Origin: Ferrimonas marina
GTDB taxonomy: Bacteria > Pseudomonadota > Gammaproteobacteria > Enterobacterales > Shewanellaceae
NCBI RefSeq assembly: GCF_900129905.1
Contig: NZ_FQXG01000007.1
Coordinates: forward strand, 310,001 to 374,000
Direction of reading: 5' to 3'
DNA: 64,000 nucleotides
In this document: in pieces, positions 37,431 through 63,850 of the stretch
Layout of the letters: every line of letters starts with the position of its first letter
How positions within the stretch are numbered: the first letter of the stretch is position 1
Notes under the pieces: generated by a model
Database searches by the model: none
What the model was told of the DNA's origin: nothing
The model's input: only the letters and a program-made list of their open reading frames with translations
Translations under genes and position numbers: made by a program

Positions 37431-39644
37431 CTAATAGCGGAAGCGATAGCCCAGCACCCACTGTTGTGAGCGGTTGGGTCGGGCGCCATAGGGCCGGCGA
37501 CTGACGATCGCCTCCTCGTCCAGCAGGTTGGTAACCTTGCCATAGACCTCGCCATAGCCGCCCAGGTCATAGCGGGCCGCCAGATCCAGGGTCCAGTAGT
37601 CGTCGGTCTCCACCCCGCTGAGGGTGACCCCCTCACCGGAGGCCTCCCACATCTCGCTGACATAACGCGCCAGTAGATCGGTACTCCAGCTCTGACCGGC
37701 CAGCCCCGCCCCCAGGGTCAACTGGTGCTCCGGCAGGTAGGGCAAGGGATCGCCGGCCTGGACCTGGCCCCACATGGTGAAGTCGGAATCAAAGTCGGTC
37801 TGGAACTCGGAGTCGGTGTAGCTGTACACCAGGCTCAGGGGCAGATCGAGCTCACCGACCCGGAAGCGGTGCTCGGCGCTGAGCTCTAGCCCGTAGACCT
37901 CCACCTCGCCGCCGTTGTACTCCTGATCGATGTTGTCGGCGCAAGAGGCGGAGGCGGAGAAGGTGCAGCTCTCCTTGAGGTTGTCGAAGTCATTGAGGAA
38001 CAGCACCGCCTCCAGACTGCTGCGATCGCCGCGGTAGCGGGTGCCCAGCTCATAGTTGACGCTGGTCTCGCTGTCGATGATCGGTGGCTGTTGTGGACTG
38101 GTAGGCACAAAGCCCTGGTGAACCCCGGCAAATACGCCCCATTGATCGCTCAGGCGGTAGAACAGGCTGGCACCGGGCAGCCAGATGCGGGTGGTCTTGC
38201 TGAGGTAATCACCAGCGGCACCGGGCTGACGGTTCTGGTAATGCATGTCGAGAAACTCGCCACGGACCCCGAGGGTCAGCTCCAGTTTGTCCCAGCTCAG
38301 GGTGTCCTGCAGATAGAGCGACCAGGCCTCGGTCTGCTCGGTGTTGAGGGTGGCGGTGATGGTCTCGCCCCCCTCTGCCACCAGGTTGCCCTGCTGCATC
38401 AGGAAGGGATCCTCGGTGTGGTTACGCTGGATCTCATCCTCGTGGTAGCGCACCCCGGCCTGGAGGTTGTGGTTGAGCCCCCACAGCGGGAAGGCCCAGC
38501 GCAGATCACTCTGGATCCCCTGGGCATAGTAATCGCGATCGTTGGTGCCGATGATCAGGGTGTCAAAGCCCAGCGGCGAGCTGCTGTCCTGGGCCCCGGT
38601 GAGCACATCGTAATAGAGGCTGTTGAGGCTCTCTTCGGGGTTTTGCAGGATCTCCGACAGGTCCCGGTCGGTCTGCGGGCTCACCGACTGAAAGCCGTTG
38701 AGCTTGGCCCAGGCGCGGCTGAAGTCGTTGCGGTAGACCCGGGTGGTGAGATCGAAATCCGGGCCGGCGAGGAAGTGGTTGAACTGCACCTGGCTGTGCT
38801 CCCACTCCATCCGGTCCAGGGCGCTGGCGCGATAGCGGCGCAGCGGATCCTGGCGAAAGTCGGCGTCGGTCAGCCCCAGGTAGGTCTCATCGGAGACCTC
38901 GTCGGCGTAGACCAGCTTCAGCTCCAGTACCTGGTTAAGGCGCTCGCCCTGGATGTCGTAGCGCAGCTTGGCCATCACCTCGTTCTTGTCGAAGCCGGTG
39001 TCGCCGCCGCCATCGAGGGATTTAAAGCCGTCACTCTCAACGTGAACGCCTTCCAGCAGTATCCCCAGATCGCCAAAGCGATCGCCCCAATAACCATGGG
39101 CCTTGAGGTAGCCGTCGCTGCCGCCGGCCAGATCCACCATGGCGGCCAGGTCATCCGGCACCGCCCGGGTGGTGAGGTTCATCGCCCCGGCCACGGTGTA
39201 GGGGCCGTACTTGATCGCCCCGGGGCCCTTAACCACCTCCACCGAGGTGATCTTGCTCATCATCGGGAAGTAATAGGCGGCGGAGGCGGAGTACGGTGCC
39301 GGGGCGATCAACACCCCATCCTCCATCAGGGTTACCTTCTTACTGCGCTCCGGGGTCACCCCGCGAAAACCGATGTTGGGGCGCAGGCCAAAGCCATCCT
39401 CGCTGCGGATATTGACCCCGGGTACCTTGGCCAGGATCCGCTCGATGTCGTCGTAGCTGAACTTCTCCAGCTCCACCTCGTCGATCAGGGTGGTGGAGCC
39501 CGCCTCGGTGCGCAGTTGGTCACGCTGACCGAGGATCTGTAGCCGTTCATCGTAGGCGCTGTCCGACTCGTCTGCCCAGCTGGGCAGAGTGCCGCCCAGG
39601 GCAGTACAGAGCGCCAGCGCCAGGGGGGTAAATCGTCCTTGCAT
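37431..39644 (-). CDS. TonB-dependent outer membrane receptor (FecA-like)
   Basis: The 737-residue receptor has a signal peptide ending near PSWA, a plug domain (about residues 45-155: DDIERILAKVPGVNI, GFRGVTPERSKKVTLMEDGV, VEVVKGPGAIKYGP) and a beta barrel ending in an aromatic residue (YRFRY). The plug resembles FecA-type siderophore receptors. The ATG shares its A with the imelysin stop and has GGAG about ten bases upstream. The substrate is probably an iron chelate, from its place behind a Fur-like site beside an imelysin. Confidence 0.9.
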   Translation of the reverse strand: MQGRFTPLALALCTALGGTLPSWADESDSAYDERLQILGQRDQLRTEAGSTTLIDEVELEKFSYDDIERILAKVPGVNIRSEDGFGLRPNIGFRGVTPERSKKVTLMEDGVLIAPAPYSASAAYYFPMMSKITSVEVVKGPGAIKYGPYTVAGAMNLTTRAVPDDLAAMVDLAGGSDGYLKAHGYWGDRFGDLGILLEGVHVESDGFKSLDGGGDTGFDKNEVMAKLRYDIQGERLNQVLELKLVYADEVSDETYLGLTDADFRQDPLRRYRASALDRMEWEHSQVQFNHFLAGPDFDLTTRVYRNDFSRAWAKLNGFQSVSPQTDRDLSEILQNPEESLNSLYYDVLTGAQDSSSPLGFDTLIIGTNDRDYYAQGIQSDLRWAFPLWGLNHNLQAGVRYHEDEIQRNHTEDPFLMQQGNLVAEGGETITATLNTEQTEAWSLYLQDTLSWDKLELTLGVRGEFLDMHYQNRQPGAAGDYLSKTTRIWLPGASLFYRLSDQWGVFAGVHQGFVPTSPQQPPIIDSETSVNYELGTRYRGDRSSLEAVLFLNDFDNLKESCTFSASASCADNIDQEYNGGEVEVYGLELSAEHRFRVGELDLPLSLVYSYTDSEFQTDFDSDFTMWGQVQAGDPLPYLPEHQLTLGAGLAGQSWSTDLLARYVSEMWEASGEGVTLSGVETDDYWTLDLAARYDLGGYGEVYGKVTNLLDEEAIVSRRPYGARPNRSQQWVLGYRFRY

Positions 39645-62990: not shown

Positions 62991-63012
62991 GTTTGTCCGG
63001 CAGTACCTGCCT

Positions 63013-63068
63013 CTTAGCTCTTAGCTCCTAGCTCCTAGCGCCCAGCTCCTAGCCCCTAGCGCCTAGTG
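63013..63068. repeat. Degenerate heptamer array, 8 x CCTAGCN-type
   Basis: Eight contiguous 7-bp units (CTTAGCT twice, CCTAGCT, CCTAGCG, CCCAGCT, CCTAGCC, CCTAGCG, CCTAGTG) fill the gap before the convergent lipoprotein stop. They share the AGC core with the array at 5528-5576 but have diverged. Confidence 0.9.
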
Positions 63069-63075
63069 CCGGCGC

Positions 63076-63690
63076 TTAACCAAAGAACAGGCGCCAAAGC
63101 CAGCTGCGGTCCAGATCCTTCTGGCACTGGCGGTACTGGGCGGCGTAGCGCTTGGAGCGGTCGTCCACCCGACGGGAGACCTGGATCAACCAGGGCTTGG
63201 CGTTGTAGCTCTTGTTGCGGTAGCCGCCCCACCCCTCGTGGTAGTTGAGGTACTGGCCATAGGCATCCCATTTGGAGACGCCGTTGACCTGGTGACTCTT
63301 GTAGATAAACCAGCCCATAAAGTCGTGGGCATCGGCAAAGTTACTGCGCCGGGCCCAGCTGCGGTTGTTCTCCCGCACGTAGTCATCCCAGGTCATGGTC
63401 TTGGCCTGGGCGTAGCCGTAGGCCGTGGAGGCACGGCCGTAGGGGATAAAGCCAAGGAAGTAGCGCATCGGCGGCCGGGCGTTATGACGAAAGGAGCTCT
63501 CCTGGTACATCATCGCCATCGGCACGTGCACCGGCACCCCCCACTTCTGCTCGGTGTTCTTCGCCGCCTTATACCAGCTGCGGTTCTCCTTGAAGATGTT
63601 GCACAGGTTCTCCGGGTCCTTCGGTGGCGGTGTTGCGCAGCCGGTCAGCAGCAGAGCCAGCCCAACCAAACCCAGTTTGTTCATTTTCAT
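63076..63690 (-). CDS. Lysozyme-like (SLT-related) lipoprotein
   Basis: The 204-residue lipoprotein has lipobox LLLTGC. The region AMMYQESSFRHNARPP contains E64, placed like the catalytic glutamate of lytic transglycosylases, and TAYGYAQAKTMTWDDY resembles the GYAQ-type motif of SLT domains. A peptidoglycan-cleaving role is likely but not proven. No ribosome site is visible before the ATG at 63690 or the in-frame ATG at 63684. Confidence 0.8.
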   Translation of the reverse strand: MKMNKLGLVGLALLLTGCATPPPKDPENLCNIFKENRSWYKAAKNTEQKWGVPVHVPMAMMYQESSFRHNARPPMRYFLGFIPYGRASTAYGYAQAKTMTWDDYVRENNRSWARRSNFADAHDFMGWFIYKSHQVNGVSKWDAYGQYLNYHEGWGGYRNKSYNAKPWLIQVSRRVDDRSKRYAAQYRQCQKDLDRSWLWRLFFG

Positions 63691-63743
63691 TATTTTGATT
63701 TTCGACGTCTTTTCGATTTATTGAAAAAATTTTGCCCTGCTTG

Positions 63744-63772
63744 GGAACTTAATGGAAGGGTGTGCAGTCTGA
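63744..63772 (+). promoter_or_regulatory. Candidate sigma-E promoter
   Basis: GGAACTT (63744-63750) and TCTGA (63768-63772) are separated by 17 bases, close to the sigma-E (RpoE) pattern GGAACTT-N16-TCTGA. It drives toward the right edge, away from the lipoprotein gene. Confidence 0.5.
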
Positions 63773-63776
63773 AAAG

Positions 63777-63850
63777 ATGAACCGATTCAAACGTTCATCA
63801 TTATCCTCCTTTCATCGGGCACCTTCAGGCAGGGGTTCCCGATTTTTTTT
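63777..63850 (+). ncRNA. Candidate sigma-E-dependent small RNA, about 74 nt
   Basis: A predicted start near 63777 leads after about 37 nt to a terminator hairpin (ATCGGG-c-ACCTT pairing with GGGGT-t-CCCGAT, 63814-63843) and eight T residues. The unpaired 5' part contains ATTATCCTCCTT (63800-63811), the complement of a strong Shine-Dalgarno region. This layout is that of Hfq-dependent, sigma-E-controlled RNAs such as MicA and RybB, which repress outer membrane protein mRNAs. I recognise the layout and not a specific family. Confidence 0.45.
63814..63850 (+). terminator. Terminator of the candidate small RNA
   Basis: An 11-pair stem with one mismatch and a six-base loop is followed by TTTTTTTT, with no protein gene directly upstream on this strand. 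Confidence 0.7.

Follow-up and report, generated by a model that had tools for sequence, protein, structure and literature searches.

A probable sigma-E-dependent small RNA of Ferrimonas marina, MicA-like in its predicted action and likely a distant relative of MicA

Next to the end of the window (the whole 64,000-nucleotide stretch of Ferrimonas marina that was analysed, positions 310001 to 374000 of its contig in a genome of 4.98 Mb) lies an intergenic region that raises the question of whether it codes for a small RNA (sRNA), what controls it and where it comes from. The region is flanked by the divergent gene of an SLT_4 transglycosylase lipoprotein (emtA-like; 63076 to 63690, minus strand; Pfam PF19489, E 2.4e-79) and by a LysE-type gene that starts just past the window end. 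The genome codes for a second SLT_4 lipoprotein with 46% identity to this neighbor (C10:168376-168975), and low-complexity CTCCTAG/CTCTTAG-like repeats fill positions 63010 to 63070, between dxs and the SLT_4 gene. The reading that we prefer, as a likely though unsettled whole, is a trans-acting sRNA with its own sigma-E promoter, MicA-like in action and probably a very diverged relative of MicA.

A promoter, a predicted transcript of about 72 nt and a terminator can be read directly from the letters on the plus strand. The original prediction had described a sigma-E-type promoter, an unpaired anti-Shine-Dalgarno stretch and a hairpin followed by eight T residues, all of which were read or folded as claimed. 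The -35 element GGAACTT (63744 to 63750), whose GAAC is kept in relatives, is followed by the -10 element GTCTGA (63767 to 63772), with a spacer of 17 nt between GGAACTT and TCTGA. On their 5' side there is a possible UP-like A/T-rich tract (63723 to 63738), in which the AAAAA and TTTG-CCTG columns are largely invariant among eight Ferrimonas sequences; its function is an inference. The predicted RNA covers 63779 to 63850 and its ends have not been mapped: the end is given by the T-run, while the start was placed near 63779, within a few bases, because the annotated start of Escherichia coli micA lies 8 nt past the first base aligned by our transcript model R3 (see below). The fold (-21.5 kcal/mol, z -2.54, with 4 of 200 shuffles equal or better) consists of a 5' hairpin GATGAAC/GTTCATC (63776 to 63799), an unpaired middle and a terminator hairpin with its T8 (63814 to 63850, the T8 at 63843 to 63850), the latter not being among the calls of a simple terminator scan. 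The 5' hairpin, which RNAalifold predicts anew on 20 relatives, would shrink to GAAC/GTTC if the transcript starts at 63779. The seed CGTTCATCATTATCCTCCTT (63792 to 63811) is unpaired in the fold and complementary to the Shine-Dalgarno sequence plus AUGAUGAAC; it includes ATTATCCTCCTT, read directly at 63800 to 63811, and CATCATTATCCTCC at 63796 to 63809.

By itself the promoter motif does not exceed chance, as GGAACTTN15-17GTCNNA has 5 sites genome-wide versus 13 for the reversed control. Three of the five are the sRNA site itself, a site preceding an RpoH-like sigma factor and another that lies some 45 nt ahead of where a DegP/DegQ-like protease starts; both names are our own reading, Pfam giving sigma-70 regions and trypsin plus PDZ domains. 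The genes for RpoH and DegP/DegQ are classical sigma-E targets. The complete unit rises above chance because it stands in the same place in 8 of the 14 Ferrimonas genomes (a DNA search found it in six, and reading the upstream regions raised the number to eight) and because its stem pairs covary; the other six genomes lack it at this place. A covariance model built from three of the eight sequences recovers all eight and none of the six other loci given to it, and the four loci neither built in nor identical reach E values of 1.1e-9, 3.9e-7, 1.9e-6 and 0.0024. Invariant among the Ferrimonas sequences are the GTC at -10, GAACCG and CATCATTATCCTCC. A structure-aware alignment replaced that of MAFFT, where the terminator stems were misplaced; in it 98% of the cells pair versus 33 to 56% with the partner slid, a figure favored by the fact that the alignment was fitted to the structure. 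Both sides have changed in 4 of 15 pairs, all within the terminator stem. We regard this stretch as almost certainly a real sRNA gene, its expression being inferred; control by sigma-E, inferred from the motif and its conservation, seems very probable.

The unit belongs to a wider family. A covariance model from the eight Ferrimonas sequences (R2) matched 22 of the 394 genomes of the order at an E of <=0.1, 14 of them Shewanella, where several copies stand in tandem. These relatives have in common the GAAC promoter element, a TGAAC..GTTCA hairpin, a seed around TTCATCAT..CTCC and the terminator, often with a middle hairpin, which is extra to the window layout and found in many Shewanella copies. 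The loop of this middle hairpin is often CTAGCGC in Shewanella, a conservation for which we have no explanation. Before the later alignment, the R2 hits in L152, L155, L156, L167 and L168 were dropped for want of a promoter and four short or partial hits were likewise excluded. The transcript-only model R3 was built without any MicA, from 19 sequences of Shewanella and a single one of family f20; on these 20 sequences RNAalifold gives the 5' hairpin and the terminator, with 4 of 11 pairs compensated. R3 matches 142 of the 152 genomes of the Shewanella/Ferrimonas family at an E of <=0.01 (best, 8.5e-15), with one to seven copies each and at least two in 118 of the 142 (own table count). GAAC..TCnnA precedes 40 of the 43 inspected copies at the expected spacing, versus 28 of 2130 control windows from the same loci, and in two of the three misses GAACTTT and GACTCTA are present out of register. 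The inspected copies are the 30 best of the family-wide R3 search and 13 from a further search, and many of their upstream regions are near-identical between species. Poor conservation of the promoter and anti-SD stretch in relatives had been named as what would refute the prediction of a complete small-RNA gene; with promoter, seed and terminator conserved as a unit, this prediction is supported.

The distribution of the family is uneven. Ferrimonas aestuarii has five copies in a row at a different place, and every one of them shows the promoter motif and a terminator. A single weak copy is present in F. kyonanensis (E 0.014), adjoining a DAHP-synthase gene, and another in F. sediminum (E 0.030), while no copy was found in F. 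futtsuensis, F. sediminicola or genome G012, the last judged with strict filters only. Where the context of Shewanella copies was read, they are mostly flanked by PstS-like and M1-peptidase genes or have SCP2 and mgtE genes nearby, and none of the 63 SLT_4-gene loci of Shewanella and Parashewanella (gshA-emtA region) has an R3 match. Over the 394 genomes of the order R3 matched 37, seven of them outside the family (four in f20, two in f8 and one in f2). The f8 hits are in two small genomes (G021:C3:35470-35590, E 7.6e-4; G326:C1:444509-444630, E 0.003). No Rfam family matched the window or 11 relatives' loci at the gathering level, and permissive settings brought nothing but subthreshold hits; one of these, of mmgR/suhB on an F. 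aestuarii copy (L289, 882 to 960; E 0.14, 27.5 bits versus a gathering score of 41) was judged to be chance. We found no report of this sRNA family in the open-access literature, outside which most subscription papers lie.

Potential targets were ranked by the duplex energies of the seed with start regions over 1.664 Mb, 33% of the genome, in which a simple caller gave 1432 ORFs. Multiheme lipoproteins occupy ranks 1, 3, 4 and 13, and the three of them run on Pfam have an MtrC/MtrF domain, with the NCBIfam OmcA/MtrC family below cut-off. Rank 6 is an ORF with an OmpA_membrane domain, rank 15 a Tsx-family channel and rank 16 TolC-like by eye, while ranks 2 and 5 are not exported according to our own rule. 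The leader at 39644, put forward as a target in the original prediction, turned out to be unremarkable (rank 349). The seven ORFs with at least five CxxCH motifs, several of which are paralogues, have a mean of -20.7 versus -11.2 kcal/mol overall (p 7e-5; 0 of 40 shuffled seeds as low). Contig C13 contains a run of at least four OmcA/MtrC-type multiheme lipoprotein genes with near-identical leaders (about 120864 to 130221). When targets were first tested, on 864 kb with 760 ORFs, of which a rule of our own classed 18 as outer-membrane-like, no enrichment emerged, 39 of 60 shuffled seeds being at least as good; the cytochrome pattern came to light only once the sample had been enlarged to 1.664 Mb and is therefore post hoc in the window genome.

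A fresh test was made in Shewanella sp. ANA-3 (400 kb, 314 ORFs), in a region picked because the mtr cluster lies there. For copy 1, OmpW ranks first, a porin near pstS second and an MtrC-type decaheme cytochrome fourth, and, taken together, the six multiheme ORFs reach p values of 0.020, 0.0008 and 0.003 with the three copies, 0 of 40 shuffled seeds doing as well in each case. In neither genome are outer-membrane-like ORFs enriched as a class among the predicted targets, an E. coli OmpA query gave nothing better than weak matches in the 1.664-Mb sample, and most ORFs whose starts have ATGATGAA code for exported proteins in any case (8 of 12 and 5 of 7). The cytochrome signal is owed mostly to the seed's anti-AUG half (p 2e-4), the anti-SD half giving p 0.014, and the E. 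coli MicA seed too ranks these cytochromes high, while the RybB seed does not. The reported targets of MicA include ompA, tsx and ecnB in the accessible text of one paper (PMC3551931), and OmpW and Tsx in that of another (PMC4618604). We consider it probable that the sRNA masks the start regions of outer-membrane or surface-protein mRNAs in the manner of MicA, a repression that is inferred from computed pairing only. Regulation of decaheme cytochromes is a tentative proposal, less likely than not. The same doubt attaches to the bolder reading that a MicA-lineage sRNA was amplified into tandem sigma-E arrays in Shewanella and parts of Ferrimonas and silences the OmcA/MtrC decaheme cytochromes along with classical porins, so that envelope stress would shut down extracellular electron transfer.

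Is the family then related to MicA? Distant homology appears likely to us, yet it is inferred and not proven, and we have not filed the window copy as MicA. The kinship rests on intermediates and on place, because the window-micA alignment is not significant and neither R2 nor the Rfam model of MicA (RF00078) connects the families: micA is not among the matches of the R2 search, RF00078 misses the family up to an E of 10, both at the window copy with its surroundings and in ten loci of the family, its gathering score (41 bits) is not reached by the window or 11 relatives' loci, and it matched none of the searched genomes of the Shewanella/Ferrimonas family. Genomes in which RF00078 does exceed its cut-off are G023 and G047 (family f10), all other such hits being in f18. 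As to place, micA lies between luxS and gshA in E. coli, convergent with gshA, the position between these two genes being also given in the available part of a review (PMC4618604). The sRNA gene stands between gshA and the SLT_4 gene, convergent with gshA, in all three f20 loci inspected (L182, L346 and L347) and both Idiomarina loci inspected, while in Ferrimonas a LysE-type gene, joined in several species by a lipoprotein gene, separates it from gshA. In eight further SLT_4-gene loci outside these groups and Shewanellaceae, counting Idiomarina, a convincing hit was found in the two Idiomarina only.

The evidence from similarity is of two kinds. In all 30 loci from Rfam-MicA genomes the best R3 hit overlies MicA on the correct strand, with 12.5 to 23.8 bits; ten E. 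coli loci with other sRNAs reach at most 14.9 bits (GcvB), a score exceeded by 29 of the 30 MicA loci and by E. coli micA itself with 22.6. In direct alignments of transcripts only, with z values against dinucleotide shuffles, micA is linked to Idiomarina (4.7) and F. aestuarii (4.2), Idiomarina to F. aestuarii (5.7), f20 to Ferrimonas (4.6 to 7.5) and Ferrimonas to Shewanella (3.8 to 6.2), six other E. coli sRNAs giving 1.8 at most. The signal is weak or absent for micA with F. balearica (2.0), f20 (2.3) and Shewanella (1.3 and 2.6), and for Idiomarina with f20 (1.6) and Shewanella (0.5 and 2.6); the window transcript is not significantly similar to micA (0.7) and gives 1.0 with Idiomarina.

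These gaps leave room for an sRNA of the same action but independent origin, whose likeness to MicA would be convergence on covering the Shine-Dalgarno sequence plus AUGAUGAA and whose gshA neighborhood would be coincidental. The lack of direct similarity between the window copy and micA, and the failure of R2 and RF00078 to connect them, fit such an origin, and the gshA-emtA neighborhood is itself widespread, most loci seen there being without a copy. Against it are the five of five f20 and Idiomarina copies convergent with gshA as micA is, the R3 scores on MicA above those of the controls, and CTGAGTATATGAA, common to the Idiomarina copy and the E. coli micA promoter/start region. We find independent origin the unlikelier account, though one that cannot be set aside.

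Far weaker is the possibility that the element is no free sRNA at all, and instead serves the SLT_4 gene as a leader with a mini-ORF on the minus strand, or attenuates the LysE-type gene. The minus strand does offer a ribosome site with start codons in AGGAGGATAATGATGAAC, but the tiny ORFs vary in length and sequence across species, the T-run and the covarying stem suit the plus strand, and relatives with a promoter and terminator of their own occur in tandem and amid different genes, which makes this very improbable. The two small ORFs that overlap the unit match no Pfam family. An untranscribed chance assembly of motifs, for which the uninformative promoter count and the absence of expression data could be cited, is hardly credible given the conservation, the covariation and the placement of the promoter in relatives.

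Under the preferred reading of a diverged MicA-like sRNA, misfolded outer-membrane proteins would free sigma-E, and an RNA of about 72 nt would be made and end at the terminator. Its open seed is predicted to pair with the Shine-Dalgarno sequence and start codon of outer-membrane or surface-protein mRNAs and thereby block their translation, and Hfq, whose binding is inferred, probably takes part in pairing and repression. The 1.664 Mb (33%) of the genome searched yielded no hfq and no clear rpoE, so their presence is assumed on general grounds. In Idiomarina and f20 the lineage may have kept its place next to gshA, and in Ferrimonas one at a distance of one or two genes, and it may have relocated and multiplied in Shewanella and F. 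aestuarii.

As far as its accessible text goes, a 2009 paper did not find micA and rybB in S. oneidensis and suggested another mechanism for its porins (PMC2659441), and the 2015 review, in its available part, describes MicA as an RNA of Enterobacteriaceae with one partial hit beyond (PMC4618604). An sRNA family with sigma-E-type promoters is now seen in 142 of 152 genomes of the Shewanella/Ferrimonas family. Were the predicted targets to hold, they would connect envelope stress with metal respiration; a RyhB study states, in the portion accessible, that no further iron-dependent regulator of mtrC is known (PMC5826389), and nothing in our analysis links the window sRNA to iron. Seed, copies and targets can be tested directly in S. 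oneidensis.

Among known systems, ChiX, CyaR and OmrA have an anti-SD seed in an unpaired stretch before the terminator, as the window sRNA does, but they differ in their promoters and show no likeness above shuffles. RybB has an outer-membrane role and a similar sigma-E-type promoter (GAACTT and GTCTTA are seen upstream of rybB), whereas its transcript gives a z of -0.7 with the window copy, R3 does not match rybB and no RybB Rfam match was found in the window. The suggestion of a MicA/RybB-like RNA thus survives in its MicA half, which gains from the gshA synteny and the R3 hits on micA, and lacks any sequence likeness on the side of RybB. With respect to MicA, the window copy differs in being out of the reach of RF00078, in lacking its first stem-loop and having a weak 5' hairpin, in not standing beside luxS and in being multicopy in relatives. 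The layout given for MicA in the accessible text of PMC3551931, a linear 5' seed followed by two stem-loops of which the second is the terminator, is not met by the window copy, with its weak 5' hairpin, open seed and single strong hairpin. A MicA homolog outside Enterobacteriaceae has been named before, CT_532 of Bordetella pertussis, with 60% identity to MicA according to the available part of the report (PMC12235514). What the window family has in common with MicA is the sigma-E-type promoter, the predicted length of about 72 nt in the window copy, a seed with ATCATC...CC, the terminator, relatives convergent with gshA, and predicted targets that include an OmpA-domain protein, a Tsx-family protein and, in ANA-3, OmpW.
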